Shown: positions 6,829-60,050 of the stretch, piece by piece
How the letters are laid out: every line of letters begins with the position of its first letter
Position numbering within the stretch: position 1 is the stretch's first letter
Assembly: GCF_001424545.1 (NCBI RefSeq)
Contig: NZ_LMQL01000014.1
Span: 62,001 to 126,000, forward strand
Reading direction: 5' to 3'
Origin: Ramlibacter sp. Leaf400
GTDB lineage: Bacteria > Pseudomonadota > Gammaproteobacteria > Burkholderiales > Burkholderiaceae_C
DNA: 64,000 nucleotides
The notes under the pieces: generated by a model
Seen by the model: only the letters and a program-made list of their open reading frames with translations
Told to the model about the DNA's origin: nothing
The model's database searches: none
Position numbers and translations under genes: made by a program

Positions 6829-7374
6829 CTAGTCGAAGTGGTGCCAGTGCTCTTCGGGGAGCCTGGCCAGGAAGTCGTGCGCGGCCTGCAGGACGCCGGC
6901 CCGGTCGGCCCACTCGATCTGGTCGCGCAGGCGCAGGCGCTTCTGCATGGCCGACGTCGCGGCCCAGCCCTTGCGGTCCACGGGCGGCGGCGGTGACTGC
7001 GTGCGGCCGTCGACCACCCGGGCCGGCAGCAGGTCGTGAAGGGCGGCCCAGGGGGCGGGCAGCGGGCAGGCGCGGTTGTTGCGCCGCGCCAGGTTCATCA
7101 CCTCGTCCAGCGTGACCGCGCGGCGCGACTCGATGGCCCGGGCCTTGAGCACGTGCTCCAGCGGCTGGGTCGGCTCGTAGCCGGGCGCGGGCGGGGGCTG
7201 GTCGTCCGCGGCCGGCGCCTCCACCTTCTCCTGCACCGGGTTGCGCAGCGCCTCGAAGCGCTGCCAGGCCGACTCGCTGTCCTCCTCCAGCCCCATCGGC
7301 GCGGTCGCGCGGCTGGCCGGGAAGAACGGCTCGGGGGACACGCCCGGCTTGGGTGGCTTGCTATCGGTGGACAT
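6829..7374 (-). CDS. Conserved hypothetical protein next to polA
   Basis: A 181-residue soluble protein; the ATG at 7374 (MSTDSKPPKPG) is chosen over an upstream ATG whose extension is not conserved-looking. The first 85 residues are Pro-rich and probably disordered. Residues of about 85-181 are helical and hydrophilic and end LPEEHWHHFD. No membrane segment, signal or catalytic motif is visible. The gene follows polA on the same strand with a 42-bp gap, so it may be cotranscribed. Family not recognised. Confidence 0.6.
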   Translation of the reverse strand: MSTDSKPPKPGVSPEPFFPASRATAPMGLEEDSESAWQRFEALRNPVQEKVEAPAADDQPPPAPGYEPTQPLEHVLKARAIESRRAVTLDEVMNLARRNNRACPLPAPWAALHDLLPARVVDGRTQSPPPPVDRKGWAATSAMQKRLRLRDQIEWADRAGVLQAAHDFLARLPEEHWHHFD

Positions 7375-52649: not shown

Positions 52650-53097
52650 CTTCGTCTCCCGGGCCGGCCGGGGCCAGCAGTTCGGTGCATTCGTCCAGCA
52701 GCGCATGCAGCGCCAGCACGCGGCGGACCCCCAGTTGCGCGTTCAGGTTCTCCTGCGCCACGCGCCAGCGCCGCTGGGCCTCGTGCCGCTTGTCGCGCCC
52801 GGCGTCGGTGGCCAGCACCCGGTGGCTGCGGGCGTCGTCGCCCGCCTCCAGGGCCAGCAACCCCGCGGCCAGCAGCGGCTGCAGGTTGCGGCTGAGCGTG
52901 GAGGCGTTCACCTTCATCTCGCGCGCCAGGTCGACCGGGCGGATGGGGCCCAGCTTGCAGACGTAGGAGAGCAGCGAGTACTGCGTGCCCCTCAGCCCGG
53001 TCTTGCCGACCTCGGCGTCGTAGTGCTGCGCCACCCGGCGCATCAGCTGGCGCAGCTTCAGGTTGGTGCAGCCCTGCGGCTTGACAACGGTGTCCAT
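52642..53097 (-). CDS. MarR-family transcriptional regulator
   Basis: A 151-residue winged-helix dimer. The DNA-binding part is LRGTQYSLLSYVCKLGPIRPVDLAREMKVNASTLSRNLQPLLAAGLL (about 35-81). Flanking helices form the dimer interface. It is the first gene of an operon with the MFS transporter and is divergent from a PaaI-like gene, with palindromes at 53107-53133 in the gap. Such proteins usually repress both sides until a phenolic or other small ligand binds. Confidence 0.92.
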   Translation of the reverse strand: MDTVVKPQGCTNLKLRQLMRRVAQHYDAEVGKTGLRGTQYSLLSYVCKLGPIRPVDLAREMKVNASTLSRNLQPLLAAGLLALEAGDDARSHRVLATDAGRDKRHEAQRRWRVAQENLNAQLGVRRVLALHALLDECTELLAPAGPGDEDE

Positions 53098-53106
53098 GGG
53101 CGATTA

Positions 53107-53133
53107 TTGTAGATGCAACCGTTGCATATGCAA
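53107..53133. promoter_or_regulatory. Candidate MarR operator (overlapping palindromes)
   Basis: TTGCATATGCAA (53122-53133) is a perfect 12-bp palindrome, a diverged copy TTGTAGATGCAA lies at 53107-53118, and ATGCAAC-C-GTTGCAT (53113-53127) links them. The site lies 10 bp from the MarR start and 34 bp from the thioesterase ATG. Confidence 0.65.
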
Positions 53134-53166
53134 GTACCAGATGCGAAAAGGACCAGGAGTCGACCG

Positions 53167-53712
53167 ATGACGCAGCACGACATGCTCGAACAATGGCTGG
53201 CGCAGGAGCGCGAGCAGACCGCCCGCTTCGAAGGGGGCGCCGGCTGCGGCGTCGCGCGGCCGGACCAGGTGGCCGGCCTGAGCGGGCTGGAGATGCTGCA
53301 TGCCATGCTGGCCGGCCGGCTGCCCTACCCGCCCATCGCCCGCACGCTGGACTTCCTGCTGGTCGAGGCCGAGGACGGCCGCGCCGTGTTCCAGGGCACG
53401 CCCGGCCCGGCCCACCTCAACCCCATGGGCGGCATCCACGGCGGCTGGTACGCGACGCTGCTCGATTCGGCGCTGGGCTGCGCCGTGCACACCAGGATGC
53501 CGCCCGGCCGCGGCTACACCACGGCCGAACTGAGCGTGAACATCGTGCGCGCCCTGGGCAGCAAGGCGCAGCGCGTGCGCGCCGAGGGCAAGGTGCTGCA
53601 CGCGGGGCGGCAGCTAGCCACCGCCGAAGGCCGGCTTTATGGCCCCGACGGCACGCTGTACGCGCACGCGACGACGACCTGCCTGGTGTTCGAGTTGCCG
53701 GCCGCGCGCTAG
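53167..53712 (+). CDS. PaaI-family hotdog thioesterase
   Basis: A 181-residue protein. The ATG at 53167 has AGGAG upstream; the frame also runs upstream from 53113 but through the operator. The hotdog core shows NPMGGIHGGWYATLLDSALGCAV (about 79-101), the PaaI active-site region with the HGG loop and an Asp on the helix, and TTAELSVNIVRAL. It is expected to hydrolyse acyl-CoA thioesters, often of aromatic acids. It is divergent from the MarR/MFS pair and possibly coregulated. Confidence 0.88.
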   Translation: MTQHDMLEQWLAQEREQTARFEGGAGCGVARPDQVAGLSGLEMLHAMLAGRLPYPPIARTLDFLLVEAEDGRAVFQGTPGPAHLNPMGGIHGGWYATLLDSALGCAVHTRMPPGRGYTTAELSVNIVRALGSKAQRVRAEGKVLHAGRQLATAEGRLYGPDGTLYAHATTTCLVFELPAAR

Positions 53713-53848
53713 CTGTTCCAGGCGGGTCGCCCCCGCCGGTCGCACGCTGCGCCGAAAGTCGACAAACTCGAGCAGCTCGGCCTGACCTTCTACCTCTTCC
53801 GTCCGGCAACCATCCTTCCCAATCACCCCCCGACAAATCGGAGGAGTG

Positions 53849-54550
53849 ATGAAGAAACTGTGCTGCCTGATGGCGCTGGCCGTTCTCGCCGGCATCGGTC
53901 CTGGAGAGGCATCCGCTCAGCCTGCGCCGGGGGAGATCGTCGAGTACCCAGATACCAGCCTCACGGCCTGCCCGACCCAGCATGAAGTCCTGTCCCACTT
54001 CTACTACGTGGTCGATTCCCCTTTCTACCGTGGAGCAACGTGGTGCGGTGCGGCGCAAGCCGTGACCAACTACTGGAGCGAGACCGGTCCCTTGCGGCCC
54101 TACATCCTGGAGGAGTGCACCGCGGGGCATCACTGGAGGTTTTCAACTGCCTGCAGCACCACCACTTTCTGCGACGGTTCGGGCCGGGACCACCACTGGC
54201 CTCCCATGCGCGGCATCACCATGGTGTGCATCGGTGTGGCCCCGCCGCCGGAGCCGCCACTGGATCCGGGGAATCCACCCCTCGGCTGCATCACAGGTTC
54301 GGGCGGTTTCTCCCGATGCCTTCGCGACGAGGGCGTCCTCCCCTCCGGCACGCCCCCGGGCACTCCCGCGGTCGGCGGCCTCAATCCGAATGCCGGTTCC
54401 CCTGGCAACGACGACTCGCACGCCGAAGCCCCGCCCCAGGTGCTGCCTGACGCCGGCGCCAACCAGGGTTCCTGCACGCGCGCCGAGGCGGTAGGCAACC
54501 CGATCTTCGCTGGCACCGGCAACAAGTTCCAGGAAGAGGTGGTCGCCTAG
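53849..54550 (+). pseudogene. N-terminal fragment of an RHS-repeat (YD-repeat) protein
   Basis: A 233-residue reading frame with a signal peptide (MKKLCCLMALAVLAG...ASAQ) and GGAGG before the start. The middle is Cys/Trp-rich and includes CGAAQAVTNYWSETGP and a Pro-rich linker. The last residues, AVGNPIFAGTGNKFQEEV, are the start of an RHS core (GNPI...TGNK), and the frame then stops after VA. RHS proteins normally continue for a thousand residues or more. The tetraspan gene starts right after the stop codon. It is most likely a truncated RHS toxin carrier; a secreted short protein is the alternative. Confidence 0.65.
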
Positions 54551-55003
54551 ATGATTCGCAACACACGCCATGCACGTACGCTGCCCGGATGGATGCGGCT
54601 GCTCTTTTCGCTGTTCGCGGGCCTGCTCTGGTTAGGTGTCCTTGAGAGCATGCTCGTGCTCCGGTCGCTGTGGGTGAATTCAGGGCCGTCAGAGTACGTG
54701 GCAGTTCAGCTGGTCATGGCCGCAGCAGTATCAGGCTGCATGCTTATTGCTACGTCACTAGGAGCACTTGCACTTTCTTCACTTGCCTTCACGCCGACGT
54801 TGTTCCGGAAGGTCAACATTGGCTTGATCGGCGGCGGTTTGACGATCTTCACGGCGCTCCTGTTTATGGACCTGACCACGTCACGAGCGGTGATGCACGG
54901 AGAACTCTTGGAAGGAAAGAGAGCCAGCTTGGTCGTATATGGCCTTGTACTAACTCTGACAGCTGGACTGCTGCATCTGCTGCACCGACGCCGGTCTTCG
55001 TAG
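54551..55003 (+). CDS. Four-helix membrane protein, candidate RHS immunity protein (1)
   Basis: A 150-residue protein starting directly after the stop of the RHS fragment. Helices are at about 15-38, 48-72, 85-106 and 125-144. A charged loop RAVMHGELLEGKRASL lies between helices 3 and 4. The gene at 55467 has the same length, layout and an ELLxGKR loop, so the two are probably paralogues. Position behind an RHS fragment and small membrane topology fit immunity proteins to membrane-acting toxins; this is inference. The 3' end overlaps the start of the second RHS fragment. Family not recognised. Confidence 0.6.
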   Translation: MIRNTRHARTLPGWMRLLFSLFAGLLWLGVLESMLVLRSLWVNSGPSEYVAVQLVMAAAVSGCMLIATSLGALALSSLAFTPTLFRKVNIGLIGGGLTIFTALLFMDLTTSRAVMHGELLEGKRASLVVYGLVLTLTAGLLHLLHRRRSS

Positions 55004-55367
55004 CCGAGTTCGCAACGGCTCAGACGGCAAGAGGCGACCGGTGTGGCAATGGCCGTACAGCGCGTTCGGGGATAACAAGCCGAGAGGGGCGTTGGTGCGA
55101 ACGCTGCCGCGCGGCAACGAGCCGGCGCAGCTGATAGCTACGGAGCCGATCGAATTCGGCCTGAGGTTTCCTGGACAGCAGGAGGATGCCGAGGCTGGCT
55201 TGTCGGATAACTTGTTCCGGTGGCATCACTCCAAAGGCGGGCGCCAACTCCAAAAGCTCGACCTAGGCGAAATGTTGACCGTTGCCTACGTGAAGTCTGG
55301 CACAGACAACTGGGCGACAGTAGTTGGCGAGCCAGTCATGATCGGGATCCACGGCGCAGAACTCTAA
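54996..55367 (+). pseudogene. C-terminal RHS core fragment
   Basis: The frame from about 54996 reads RNGSDGKRRPVWQWPYSAFGDNKP, then IEFGLRFPGQQEDAEAGLSDNLFRWHHSKGGR, the hallmark end of an RHS core (WQWPYSAFG... FPGQ-YDxETGL-YNYFR). Usual Tyr residues are replaced, for example HYN to SDN. After this the sequence diverges into a short unrelated tip (LGEMLTVAYVKSGTDNWATVVGE). A GTG at 55041 could open a 108-residue frame, but the fragment lacks the preceding core and the signal region. It is most likely the remnant of the same protein as 53849-54550. Confidence 0.6.
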
Positions 55368-55466
55368 GACCTCGCCGGCTTCCGAGTCGTCACGTGCAAT
55401 TGACACCGACCAGATGCCGGGCCTTCGGCAACATGATTCCGTCCAACATTTCCGAGCAGATCATCT

Positions 55467-55913
55467 ATGCTTAGTTCGCTCAGATCAGTGCTGGCCAGCA
55501 TCATCCGTGGGCTCTTGTGCGCCATATTCGCCCTCGAGATGTTTGGAGCAGCGCTTGCAACAGAAGGCTTGTGGGCTTACCGAGATGGTGTCGATGCTTC
55601 GCCAGCAGACGCTGTGACGCTCTGCGCCGTGTTGCTCGTCATGATGATTGCTTCCGTTCTTTCCGTCTTCTCGCTGTTCGGCCCGCAGTTGAAACTGCAA
55701 ACACGGGCTCTGGGCTCCTTGTCTGCCTCAGTCTCACTCCTGCTTCGAACTGCTTTGCTTCTCGCTCCAGCAAGCGTGGCGATGCCGTGGACGAGCGAGC
55801 TTCTCTCGGGCAAGAGGTTCGATGTGATCTTTGGAACTCTCGCCACCTGCGTGGCACTTGTCTTCGCGGCAGCGGACGACGTGCACGCTGCGCGCCCCGA
55901 GGCTCGCTCCTGA
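55467..55913 (+). CDS. Four-helix membrane protein, candidate RHS immunity protein (2)
   Basis: A 148-residue protein with helices at about 8-32, 48-70, 82-104 and 116-136. The loop PWTSELLSGKRFDVIF between helices 3 and 4 matches ELLEGKR in the protein at 54551-55003, and the overall layout is the same. It lies 99 bp downstream of the second RHS fragment. The region is visibly less GC-rich than the rest of the window, suggesting transfer. Not recognised; immunity to an RHS tip is inferred from context. Confidence 0.6.
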   Translation: MLSSLRSVLASIIRGLLCAIFALEMFGAALATEGLWAYRDGVDASPADAVTLCAVLLVMMIASVLSVFSLFGPQLKLQTRALGSLSASVSLLLRTALLLAPASVAMPWTSELLSGKRFDVIFGTLATCVALVFAAADDVHAARPEARS

Positions 55914-56073
55914 AGGGCGCCGGTACTGCACCCACCCTGCCCTCGCGGCTCGTGGGCTACGACAGCCGGGACCGCGCCATCCGGTTGGCGGCACTCCACC
56001 GGCGACAATGCCCCGGCCGCGCGCGCTCCTCCGTGCGGGCCCCTGCAACCTCCCGAGCCTCGCGCCCACCGAC

Positions 56074-56730
56074 ATGAACCTGGATTCGCCCCGCACCGGG
56101 ACCGCCCTGCCGCTGTCCGTCCCACGCCGCCTCGGCTTGCGCAGCGAGTCCGGCCGCATCGCCTTCACCCTGTGCCTGCTCGCGGCCAGCGCCGCGGCCC
56201 ACGCGCACACCGAGGAAGTCACCGCCGGCGGCTTCGTCTCGGGCCTGCTGCATCCGGTGACCGGCATCGACCACCTGCTGGCCATGGTGGCCGTGGGCAT
56301 CTGGGGCGCGGTGCTGGGCGCCCCGCTGCTGTGGGCGCTGCCCATCGTGTTCCCGCTGCTGATGGTGGGCGGCGGCATGCTGGGCATCGCGGGCATGCCG
56401 CTGCCCTTCGTCGAGGGCGGCATCGCGCTGTCGGTGCTGCTGCTGGGCCTGGCCATCCTGGCGGCCTGGCGGGCGCCGGTGGCCGTCGCGGTCGCGCTGG
56501 TCGCCGCGTTCGGCGTGCTGCACGGCCATGCGCACGGCACCGAGTTGCCCGCTTCGGCCTCGCCGGCCGCCTATTCCACCGGCTTCGTGCTGGCCACCGG
56601 CGCGCTGCACCTGGCCGGCATCGGCCTGGGCGAGTTGCGGCGGCTGCCGCGCGGCGCGGCGGTGATCCGGGCGATCGGCGCGGCCATGGCGGTGGCCGGC
56701 TCCTGGATGCTGGTGACCAAGCTGGCCTGA
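56074..56730 (+). CDS. HupE/UreJ-family membrane protein
   Basis: A 218-residue protein. A signal-like N-terminus ends ASAAAHAHTEE. The HupE hallmark GFVSGLLHPVTGIDHLLAMVAVGIWGA (about 52-76) follows, with His60 and the IDHLL site, and a second His motif LHGHAHGTELP (about 149-159). Six or seven helices are expected. HupE/UreJ proteins are thought to import nickel or cobalt for hydrogenase or urease. Neither enzyme is here. It precedes a DUF4331 gene by 105 bp and may form a metal-related cluster with it. Confidence 0.85.
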   Translation: MNLDSPRTGTALPLSVPRRLGLRSESGRIAFTLCLLAASAAAHAHTEEVTAGGFVSGLLHPVTGIDHLLAMVAVGIWGAVLGAPLLWALPIVFPLLMVGGGMLGIAGMPLPFVEGGIALSVLLLGLAILAAWRAPVAVAVALVAAFGVLHGHAHGTELPASASPAAYSTGFVLATGALHLAGIGLGELRRLPRGAAVIRAIGAAMAVAGSWMLVTKLA

Positions 56731-56835
56731 ACAAGGAAAGCCCGAGCGCCACGCCGGGAGATTCGGCCGCCCACATCGGGGACGCCGCCCGCTGCGTATT
56801 GAGGTCCTGCCGCGTCGGCAGCGAAGGAGCACCTC

Positions 56836-58422
56836 ATGCGCAACTCATTCCCGTTCCGGGCCTCGGCCGTCGCGGCCGCGCTGGCCCTGGCCAGCGGCAT
56901 AGTCTCGGCCGCCAGCCACCGCGAAGCCCCGTTCATCACCACCGTGCCCAAGGTGGACTCGAGCGACTTCTACCTCTTCCGCAGCTATGAAGGCGTGGCC
57001 CCCGACGGCAGCGGCGGACGCAGCGACTTCGTGACGCTGATCGCCAACTACCTGCCGCTGCAGGACGCGTACGGCGGCCCCAACTACTTCTCGCTGGACC
57101 CGAACGCGCTCTACGAGATCCACATCGACAACAACGGCGACGCGGCCGAGGACATCACCTTCCAGTTCCGCTTCAACAACAAGCTGAACGACGTCGCGCT
57201 GCCCATCGGCAGCAAGAGCGTGGCGATTCCGCTCATCCAGGCCGGGCCGGTGGCCAACGTGGGCGACGCCAACCTCAACCTCAGCGAGACCTACACGCTG
57301 ACTGTGGTGCGGGGCGACCGCCGCCGCGGCACCGCCCAGCAGGCCACCAAGGCCGGCGGCGGCGCCACCTTCGAGAAGCCGGTCGACTACATCGGCACCA
57401 AGACGCTGGGCAACGCCGCGGCCTATGCGGCCTACGCCAACCGGCACGTGCACGCCGTCAACCTCCCCGGCTGCGCCACGCCCGCCCGCGTCTTCGTCGG
57501 CCAGCGCCAGGAGGGTTTCGCGGTCAACCTCGGGCCGATCTTCGACCTGGTGAACGCGCCGCTGTCCACCATCACCGACCCGTCCCAGATCAATGCCGCG
57601 GCCGCCAACTCCATCCAGGGCAAGAACGTCACCTCGCTCGCACTGGAAGTTCACCGCAGCTGCCTGACCCAGGGCAGCGAGCCGGTGATCGGCGGCTGGA
57701 CCACCGCCAGCCTGCGCCAGGCCCGCCTGCTCAACCCGACGCCGGCCGCGGGCCACCAGGCCACCGAACGCGCCGGCGGGGCCTGGTCGCAGGTTTCGCG
57801 CCTGGGCCAGCCGCTGGTGAACGAGGTGGTGATCGGCGTCAAGGACAAGGACCGCTTCGGCGCCTCGCGGCCGCGCGACGACGCGCAGTTCCTGGACTAC
57901 GTGACCAACCCCACGCTGCCCGCGCTGCTGGGCACGGTGCTGCAGGCCAACCTCGCGCCCACCAACCTGCCGCGCACCGACCTGGCCACCGTGTTCCTGA
58001 CCGGCATCACCGGCGTGAACAAGCCGGCCACCGTCACGCCGTCGGAGATGCTGCGGCTGAACACCGCGACGCCGCCGGTGCCCTTCGCCAGCCAGAACCG
58101 CCTGGCCATCGTGGGCAGCCTCAAGGCCTCGCCGGCGGGCACCGACTTCGCCGGCTTCCCGAACGGCCGCCGTCCCAAGGACGACGTGGTGGACATCGCC
58201 CTGGTCGCGATGCTCGGGGGCCTGTGCGTGGCCAACGGCGATGCCAACACGCTGGGCCTGAACACCATCCCCGGCGTCGCGGGCGTGAGTTCCGCCTGCC
58301 GGCCGGCCAGCGTCCCCACGGGCGCCACTTCGCTGGACGTGCACGACGCGGTCGACCAGGCCGCCGTTCCCTTCCTCGCCGGCTTCCCCTACCTGAACAC
58401 GCCCAACCCTGGCGCACAATGA
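56836..58422 (+). CDS. DUF4331 family secreted protein
   Basis: A 528-residue exported protein. MRNSFPFRASAVAAALALASGIVSAASHREAPFI is a signal peptide followed by the SHREAP opening typical of DUF4331, then DSSDFYLFRSYE. ALYEIHIDNNGDAAEDITFQFRF and the terminal LDVHDAVDQAAVPFLAGFPYLNTPNPG are also conserved. The role of the family is not established. It has EAPFITTVPKVDSSDFY and several Asp/Asn-rich loops that could bind calcium. It lies 8 bp upstream of a lipoprotein gene. Confidence 0.85.
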   Translation: MRNSFPFRASAVAAALALASGIVSAASHREAPFITTVPKVDSSDFYLFRSYEGVAPDGSGGRSDFVTLIANYLPLQDAYGGPNYFSLDPNALYEIHIDNNGDAAEDITFQFRFNNKLNDVALPIGSKSVAIPLIQAGPVANVGDANLNLSETYTLTVVRGDRRRGTAQQATKAGGGATFEKPVDYIGTKTLGNAAAYAAYANRHVHAVNLPGCATPARVFVGQRQEGFAVNLGPIFDLVNAPLSTITDPSQINAAAANSIQGKNVTSLALEVHRSCLTQGSEPVIGGWTTASLRQARLLNPTPAAGHQATERAGGAWSQVSRLGQPLVNEVVIGVKDKDRFGASRPRDDAQFLDYVTNPTLPALLGTVLQANLAPTNLPRTDLATVFLTGITGVNKPATVTPSEMLRLNTATPPVPFASQNRLAIVGSLKASPAGTDFAGFPNGRRPKDDVVDIALVAMLGGLCVANGDANTLGLNTIPGVAGVSSACRPASVPTGATSLDVHDAVDQAAVPFLAGFPYLNTPNPGAQ

Positions 58423-58430
58423 GGCCCGCC

Positions 58431-58727
58431 ATGACCAACCGAATCCTGATGAAGACCCTGGCGGCCGGCCTGGCCGGCGCATCCCTGCTGCTCGCCGCCT
58501 GCGGCGGCGGTGGCGGTGGCGGCAGCGGTGGGGGTGGCGACGCTGCGCCCACGGTGCAGTTCGTGCCCGGCACCGACGTGCCGGCTTCGGCCACCGCGTC
58601 GGCTGGCGGCGCCTTCGAGTTCGTGCTGGGGCTGCTGGCCACGACCAGCGAGACGTCCGACCCGATCACGGTCGGCAACGCCACGCTGGGCACCAGCGAA
58701 ACCGAAGACTCGCGCGCGCTCCAGTGA
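58431..58727 (+). CDS. Small predicted lipoprotein
   Basis: A 98-residue protein with a lipobox LLAAC (about residues 20-24) followed by a Gly run. The mature part (VQFVPGTDVPASATASAGGAFEFVLGLLATTSETSDPI, ending TEDSRALQ) has no recognised domain. The in-frame ATG at 58431 is chosen; an alternative ATG lies at 58449. Eight bases separate it from the DUF4331 stop and its stop overlaps the next start (GTGA), so it is part of an operon. Confidence 0.7.
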   Translation: MTNRILMKTLAAGLAGASLLLAACGGGGGGGSGGGGDAAPTVQFVPGTDVPASATASAGGAFEFVLGLLATTSETSDPITVGNATLGTSETEDSRALQ

Positions 58728-59545
58728 GCCGCCCCGTCCTGCGACGGCTTGCCGCCGCCAGCGCCCTGCTGGCGGCGTGCGCGGCCGCCTTGGCCCATGA
58801 CAGCTGGCTCAGTCCCGGCGCGGAGCCCGCGGGGCCGGGCCTCCTGCGCGTGGAGCTGGCCGTGGGCGCGCACTTCCCGGTGCGCGACCCGGCGGTGGCC
58901 GCCGCGAGCATCACGCGCGCCGCCTGCGTCGAGCCCCAGGACCGCGAACCGCGCGCCCTGCTGCCGCGCGAAGAACACGATCGCCACGTCGAACTGCGCG
59001 CGCGGGCCGATGCCGCGCGCGGGGTCGCCTGCTGGGCGGAGCTGCGGGCGCACGAGGTGACGCTGACGCCCGAGGTGGTGCAGGGCTACTTCGCCGAGAT
59101 CCGTCCCCCCGAGGCCGCCAGGCAGCTCTGGGCGCAGCAGCTCGCGCGCGGCGTCGCCTGGCGCGAGAGCTACCGCAAGTTCCTGCGCATGGAAACGGTG
59201 CCGGCCGCGGCCGCCGTGGACGGCGCGGGGCTCGAGGTGCTGCGGCGCCCGCGCGGCCTGGCGATGGAGATCCTGCCGGTCGGCACCGAAATCCTGCAGG
59301 CCGGCCGCCCCGCCGCGTTCCAGGTGCTGCTGGACGGCCGCACGCTCGCCGGCCAGTGGGTGCAGATGGTCAGCGAGCGCCACACCCAGGGCGTGTGGCG
59401 CCAGACCGATGCGCAGGGCACGGTCCGCGAAGCCCTGCCGTTCGGCGGCCAGTGGCTGCTGCGCGCCACCCACCTGGAGCCGCCGGTCCAGGACAGCCAG
59501 CCCTGGCGCAGCCGCTTCGCCACCCTCGTGGTGAATGTCCGGTGA
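58724..59545 (+). CDS. DUF4198-type periplasmic protein
   Basis: A 273-residue exported protein starting with a GTG that overlaps the lipoprotein stop. The signal peptide ends AAALAHDSWLSPG, where HDSWL is the usual mature start of DUF4198 proteins (NikM-like, associated with Ni/Co uptake). Beta-rich segments end with TQGVWRQTDAQGTVREALPFGGQWLLRATHLEPP, the conserved end. It is thought to bind metal or another ligand in the periplasm. It follows the DUF4331-lipoprotein pair. Confidence 0.8.
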   Translation: MSRPVLRRLAAASALLAACAAALAHDSWLSPGAEPAGPGLLRVELAVGAHFPVRDPAVAAASITRAACVEPQDREPRALLPREEHDRHVELRARADAARGVACWAELRAHEVTLTPEVVQGYFAEIRPPEAARQLWAQQLARGVAWRESYRKFLRMETVPAAAAVDGAGLEVLRRPRGLAMEILPVGTEILQAGRPAAFQVLLDGRTLAGQWVQMVSERHTQGVWRQTDAQGTVREALPFGGQWLLRATHLEPPVQDSQPWRSRFATLVVNVR

Positions 59546-60050
59546 AGGCGCGGCCGTGACGGCCGGCGCCCTCTTCTTCCTGCAGCAACCGCTGGCCTGG
59601 CTGCCCGTGGTGGCGGTGCTGCTGCTGGTGCGCGATTGCAGCGGGCGCACCGCGCTGTCGGCCGCCGCCGTGCTGCTGGCCGCCGCCGCGGCGACCCACT
59701 GGCTGCCGCCGCAGGGTCTGCTGCGCCTGGGCGCCGCGGGCTTCGTCGCGGCAGCCGGGATCGGCGTCGCCGCGTCGCTGCGACTGCGGGGCGCCCCCGC
59801 GGTCCTGGTGGCGGGGCTGGGCGGCGTGGCCCTGGCGCTGGGCGCGGACTTCGCCATCGCCACGCCCGCCGAGGCGGCGGGTGCGCTGCTGGTCGCCACC
59901 CTGCTGATGGCCGCGCTGGCCGCGGCCTGGCGGTTGGTGCCGCCCCGCTGGCGCGAGGCTCCCGTGGCGCGGGTCGGCGTGCGCGTCGCCGGCGCCTGGA
60001 TGGGCGCCATCGGCCTGCTGCTGCTGTCGCTGCAGGTCGCGCGCGGCTGA
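59535..60050 (+). CDS. Hypothetical multi-pass membrane protein
   Basis: A 171-residue protein with five to six hydrophobic segments and an Ala/Leu-rich composition. It overlaps the DUF4198 gene by 11 bases (ATG at 59535), so it is probably translated from the same transcript. WLPVVAVLLLVRDCSGRTAL and RVGVRVAGAWMGAIGLLLLSLQVARG flank a central Ala-rich region. The end resembles HupE/UreJ last helices only weakly. Not recognised. Confidence 0.6.
   Translation: MSGEGAAVTAGALFFLQQPLAWLPVVAVLLLVRDCSGRTALSAAAVLLAAAAATHWLPPQGLLRLGAAGFVAAAGIGVAASLRLRGAPAVLVAGLGGVALALGADFAIATPAEAAGALLVATLLMAALAAAWRLVPPRWREAPVARVGVRVAGAWMGAIGLLLLSLQVARG

Follow-up and report, generated by a model that had tools for sequence, protein, structure and literature searches.

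Does a stretch of DNA in which pieces of an RHS gene alternate with genes for small membrane proteins represent a toxin locus that has lost its toxins? Such a stretch is present in the window (the whole 64,000-nucleotide sequence analysed), and a preliminary description had read it as an RHS carrier gene collapsed by recombination while its candidate immunity genes, here called m1 and m2, were kept. From the analysis below we consider, with a probability of about 0.7, that it is a collapsed RHS polymorphic-toxin locus and that m1 and m2 have been kept as the immunity genes of lost tips. The features are listed in Table 1.

Table 1. Features of the collapsed locus and its neighbours (positions in the window).
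Feature	Position	Strand	Remarks
Thioesterase gene, PF03061	53167-53712		5' neighbour of the RHS scraps
RHS N-terminal fragment, signal-peptide-like start to TGNKFQEEV	53849-54550	+	TAG at 54548-54550; homology to ~54540
m1, 150-aa four-helix membrane protein, candidate orphan immunity gene	54551-55003	+	Four hydrophobic segments
RHS core-end fragment, VWQWPYSAFG...RFPGQ...SKGGR	55011-55243	+	Stops just 5' of the DPxGL position
Tail of ~40 codons unrelated to the RHS core	55244-55367	+	Stop at 55365-55367; GC3 0.68
m2, 148-aa four-helix membrane protein, second candidate orphan immunity gene	55467-55913	+	Four hydrophobic segments
Third RHS core scrap	55947-55986	+	In intact genes this core region precedes the core end
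HupE/UreJ gene, PF04955	from 56074		3' neighbour of the RHS scraps

The N-terminal frame (233 aa, ending in ...NPIFAGTGNKFQEEVVA*) is, to judge from its sequence, the N-terminus of a secreted-looking RHS protein, with a start that is signal-peptide-like by eye and contains one hydrophobic segment. Over its whole length it shares 60-66% identity with the first 237 residues of a paralogue situated ~54-60 kb away on the same contig (C14, ~171902-176524, minus strand; L009:5903-10525). The paralogue is a 1540-aa frame with 19 RHS-repeat stretches, DUF6531 and RHS domains and a C-terminal SAA domain (PF00277, E 2e-32), in which Pfam detected no PAAR domain. The core-end frame (54996-55367) matches the same protein from residue 1310 on, its residues 9-88 aligning to the RHS core at 65% identity (55% over a longer stretch), and its DNA is 77% identical to the paralogue (55030-55223) and 75% identical to the RHS gene of a congener, G013. 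Since both fragments match one gene in the same order, they are pieces of a single RHS architecture, with ~3.2 kb of core missing between 54540 and 55011. The alignments to full-length genes thus bear out that two separate RHS fragments flank a missing core, and the spacing of 450 bp given in the preliminary description corresponds to 470 bp between the homologous stretches, of which 453 bp are m1. No full YD-repeat core in a single frame was found at the locus; the 23 RHS_repeat matches in the genome are confined to C12 and the C14 paralogue, and none lies in the window. Pfam gave no match in either fragment and TIGR03696 (Rhs_assc_core) scored the core end below its cut-off (18.2 bits, E 0.0026; cut-off 32.5), so that the proof of RHS ancestry lies in the alignments to full-length genes. 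In plasmid searches the N fragment had no match, and the core-end fragment matched 29 records, all at less than 60% identity (32-33% among the 20 matches listed), some annotated as RHS and others hypothetical or without a listed gene.

Matches to the N fragment (E <= 0.001) were found in 6 of 61 genomes (its own and 60 relatives), at 8 places. The 7 besides the window all sit in open frames of 1446-1845 aa, one of which (L025) is cut by a contig end. That homologues of the frames beginning at 53849 and 54996 always occur as separate short genes without an RHS core, the alternative that the preliminary description had set against itself, was therefore rejected. The best match is the RHS gene of G013 (1450 aa from the first start codon; L021:5989-10341), with 68% amino acid identity at the N-terminus and DNA homology from 53780 to 54540 (71%). 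On one side of it lie homologues of the MFS (88%), MarR (91%) and thioesterase (90%) genes of the window, and on the opposite side those of the glyoxalase gene (93%), two unnamed frames (60634, 80%; 61212, 63%) and the metallophosphoesterase gene (89%), indicating that this RHS gene is at the syntenic place. The kind of intact homologue asked for in the preliminary description, sharing both N-terminus and core end, therefore exists twice, as the paralogue and as the syntenic G013 gene, and an RHS gene of a type that is full-length in a congener at the same site has lost ~3.2 kb of core here. In the 16-kb surroundings of the paralogue, none of 18 tested window genes was found in common, the two RHS fragments apart.

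The G013 RHS protein itself has a very short tip, which measures ~64 residues between DPIGL and the stop and in which Pfam detected nothing. Nor was an obvious immunity gene seen downstream, and this RHS gene too may be disarmed. A HupE/UreJ and DUF4331 block (56074-60050) separates the RHS scraps from the glyoxalase gene in the window and not in G013. Since the HupE homologue of G013 is on a different contig, the locus has been rearranged at its downstream edge as well.

The assembly of RHS arrays can go wrong, and another RHS locus of this genome, on C12, carries two single N bases and a repeated core piece. Nevertheless, it is very improbable that misassembly or sequencing errors in a repetitive RHS array have produced the apparent collapse, as there is no N in 53001-57000 and the fragments, being just 67-77% identical at the DNA level to the paralogue, are not a product of misassembly with it.

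The locus proved to hold two features beyond the preliminary description, namely a second truncation at 55243 and the third core scrap. PxxxxDPxGL is a conserved motif preceding the RHS tip, as described in PMC3150448. In the core-end fragment homology ends at GGR (55243), followed by QLQKLDLGEM, and the motif is not found. This second break took the DPxGL position and most of the second tip. The tail that follows is probably a remnant of that tip; Pfam detected no toxin-tip domain in its ~40 aa and it had no match in 398 other family genomes. The third scrap is 90% identical over 40 nt to the paralogue core near residue 1056. In a search of 41 genomes, with up to 20 candidates scored per genome, this match in its own genome reached 55.4 bits (E 1.5e-8), and other non-self matches reached at most 41 bits among the matches listed. 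No DNA match to the scrap was seen in the G013 gene, although the G013 protein contains the comparable sequence GYDSRDR at the corresponding position. Since the scrap lies downstream of the core end here but upstream of it in intact genes, the locus cannot have arisen by a single deletion within one gene. The two larger fragments are collinear with a full-length RHS gene at the same site and the third is out of order. The carrier-gene collapse first proposed is supported, but the out-of-order scrap shows that more took place than the loss of the middle of one gene. An array consisting of a main gene and displaced cassettes, thinned later by deletions, can explain the locus. Until the collapse, the core-end piece may have been one such cassette, an ordinary displaced tip.

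The lower GC content noted earlier for this segment was confirmed (0.56-0.60 across 54500-55750 versus ~0.63-0.80 in the rest of 40-64 kb), and the comparison of codon use with the flanks that had been suggested pointed the same way. GC3 is 0.64 in m1 and 0.66 in m2, close to the tip tail and well below the 0.92-0.97 of 11 flanking genes; it is 0.83 in both long RHS cores (paralogue and G013), and the values of m1 and m2 resemble those of the paralogue tip and the gene next to it (0.65 and 0.69). As first described, each RHS fragment is followed by a gene for a membrane protein with four hydrophobic segments, the third segment of m2 being marginal (1.64 versus a threshold of 1.6). At least four such segments were found in only 3 of the 44 window ORFs of 130-175 aa, namely m1, m2 and the frame at 59535. 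Single-sequence AF2 models gave four helices for m1 (mean pLDDT 63) and a helical m2 (mean pLDDT 59), both with low confidence; a Foldseek search with the low-confidence m1 model gave a best E of 0.71 and was not used. By codon usage the m1 and m2 frames are the best of six, yet weak as coding support, and the score of m2 is level with that of a reverse frame (-0.466 versus -0.467). m1 and m2 appear from their sequences to resemble each other weakly, with 29% identity in a two-row alignment and the motif ELLxGKR common to both. In tests with 500 shuffles of each type, their global score was attained by none of the plain and 6 of the block shuffles, and their local score by 3 and 12, respectively (6 and 19 of 1000 in a repeat run).

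Searches for relatives of these proteins gave little. For m1, the 61 genomes (own included) contained one 26% match over 68 aa and the 399 family genomes (own included) none; for m2, the 61 genomes (own included) held no convincing relative and the 399 (own included) two weak partial matches. A two-row m1/m2 profile run against 60 genus genomes found m1 and m2 themselves and nothing else. Short peptide patterns of the two, run against genome_contigs, detected no convincing relative, and plasmid searches with m1 and m2 gave no match. Around the weak partial matches in G032, G136 and G248 there was no RHS match within the 3.2-kb loci, and in the collections searched no m1/m2 homologue adjoined an intact RHS gene. 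Pfam/NCBIfam matches to m1/m2 (Flavi_NS4A, E 0.11; DUF4233, E 0.99) were below cut-off and were read as noise, as were the matches in PDB sequence searches, which gave either none or four triosephosphate isomerase chains at E 0.15-0.43.

Other genes lying behind RHS tips were compared as well. The paralogue is followed by a 148-aa gene (L009:5452-5898, minus strand) that is lipoprotein-like by eye, has no Pfam match and is a candidate SAA-tip immunity gene. In G028 and G006, the RHS tips (L022:5156-6102 and L023:244-1250) are phospholipase A2-like (PF00068, E ~0.003, below cut-off). Overlapping or abutting the RHS end in each case is a small hydrophobic gene, which in G028 has three segments by the threshold used, not four. 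Kinship of m1/m2 with the gene following the paralogue was rejected, no resemblance being seen, and so was kinship with the 108-aa hydrophobic gene by the G028 RHS gene, as 163 and 379 of 1000 plain shuffles reached the scores.

Position, topology, composition and precedent together lead us to infer that m1 and m2 are orphan immunity genes. It is quite improbable that one or both are unrelated small membrane cargo, inserted into a dead RHS gene and never concerned with immunity. It is true that m1 occupies almost precisely the place of the core (54541-55010), the pattern expected of an insertion-deletion, and that the searches placed no homologue of m1 or m2 beside any RHS gene, but a repeat search detected none bracketing m1 or the deletion. 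Moreover, both genes lie where immunity genes do, 3' of RHS fragments, they have a tip-like composition, and the weak resemblance between them also speaks against cargo.

The ratios dN/dS were calculated for the three pairs window-G013, window-paralogue and G013-paralogue, and the NG86 values are quoted, YN00 having returned a result in only 2 of the 10 region pairs. They are 0.34, 0.30 and 0.31, respectively, for the N region, 0.14, 0.16 and 0.22 for its conserved second half, and 0.16, 0.20 and 0.15 for the core end. By this measure these two RHS scraps are still coding-like, without any trace of prolonged neutral drift, suggesting that the collapse is recent. Open frames that were under purifying constraint until recently would also be expected of a minimal RHS design still at work, in which the secreted N-domain and the short orphan tip are encoded by separate genes. 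This seems far-fetched, since the core and the DPxGL position are absent, the other homologues of the N fragment are long in 7 of 7 cases, and the first listed start codon of the core-end frame (GTG, 55041) lies inside the homologous part.

A further alternative, which shares the collapse with our reading and so overlaps with it in origin without the odds being exclusive, is that m1 and m2 are now passive debris drifting without present function. The locus is clearly decaying, the ribosome-binding sites of both genes are weak-looking by eye, a scan for sigma-70-like promoters found 0 versus 0.2 expected, and the absence of homologues and the weak coding scores described above point in the same direction. 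We regard this as unlikely, because m1 and m2 remain full length with four hydrophobic segments each although the toxin parts are gone, and because among the 44 ORFs of that size four segments are otherwise seen just in the frame at 59535. Scans for terminators (3 found versus 1.7 expected, no excess) and for tRNAs (50-62 kb) gave no lead.

On the reading that m1 and m2 were kept as immunity genes, the ancestral array may have been RHS(N-core-tip1)-m1-[displaced core end+tip2]-m2-[older displaced core scrap], from which deletions would then have taken the toxin parts, leaving m1, m2 and the core scraps. m1 and m2 would have conferred immunity to those lost tips, and since these protectors are integral membrane proteins, the tips probably attacked the envelope or membrane lipids. 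The context in the genus, with a hydrophobic gene behind PLA2-like tips and a lipoprotein-like gene behind the SAA tip, fits a membrane-protector role in part. The ATG of m1 lies immediately 3' of the TAG of the N fragment (TAGATG), and from this junction alone it is possible that m1 translation is coupled to the leader fragment. Being directly behind the leader-fragment stop, m1 could also be expressed from the old RHS promoter, in which case the cell, with no toxin of its own, may now be protected against competitors still carrying the tip. We hold it doubtful that m1 and m2 are the founders of an undescribed four-helix immunity family against membrane- or lipid-acting RHS tips and that the deletion was selected, fusing m1 to the RHS promoter and leader to give a toxin-free, expressed immunity operon.

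As a piece of evolutionary wreckage, the locus is clear but of an ordinary type. It belongs to a known kind, RHS remnants with orphan immunity genes, of which the SAIDI-1 islet of Salmonella Typhi, as presented in PMC7400221, is an example. Both keep putative orphan immunity genes beside degraded Rhs remnants with the toxins gone. SAIDI-1 is described there as containing eight immunity genes with recognised relatives in a T6SS/CDI context, whereas the window locus has two membrane proteins without convincing relatives and its intact paralogue shows no PAAR by Pfam. It is also established that a main rhs gene can be followed by orphan rhs-CT/rhsI fragments (PMC3967940, PMC3150448), and the window shares with these modules a displaced core end without a good start signal, then a small gene. 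As those accounts have it, the orphan tip is complete and toxic, whereas here the core end is present but the tip is cut to ~40 codons, m2 begins 99 bp past the stop and the main gene has likewise disappeared. For Serratia marcescens Db10, PMC10539506 reports a standalone orphan Rhs immunity gene that was shown to protect. Standalone immunity genes at an Rhs locus are thus common to both, those of the window being candidates, but the main Rhs-RhsI pair described in Db10 is intact and that of the window destroyed. The window locus departs from the polyimmunity locus, defined in PMC3482391 as tandem immunity genes uninterrupted by toxin cassettes, in that m1 and m2 are separated by a core-end/tip scrap. 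The SAA (Lipocone)-tip paralogue has its N-terminus and core in common with the window fragments, but it is intact and followed by a lipoprotein-like gene unlike m1/m2, whereas the RHS gene of the window is fragmented. In the description of lipid-targeting Lipocone tips in PMC12419801, the immunity proteins are membrane or lipoproteins, one of them having a 4-TM core and being reported with Min-Wnt, not SAA, tips. Three features are particular to the window locus: the main gene is gone from a site at which a congener has retained it, m1 stands behind the leader, and the immunity candidates lack recognised relatives.

One and the same site, occupied by a full-length RHS gene in one congener and by the collapsed version in the other, provides a before/after pair, with breakpoints placed within tens of bases. 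This pair can be used to ask whether disarming cells keep protection, and also whether deletions placing an immunity gene behind the leader of the weapon are favoured. The third RHS locus of the genome, on C12 (L010:4321-9816), has its single N bases at 7267 and 9371 and its core piece repeated downstream, possibly as a displaced cassette or through an assembly problem.
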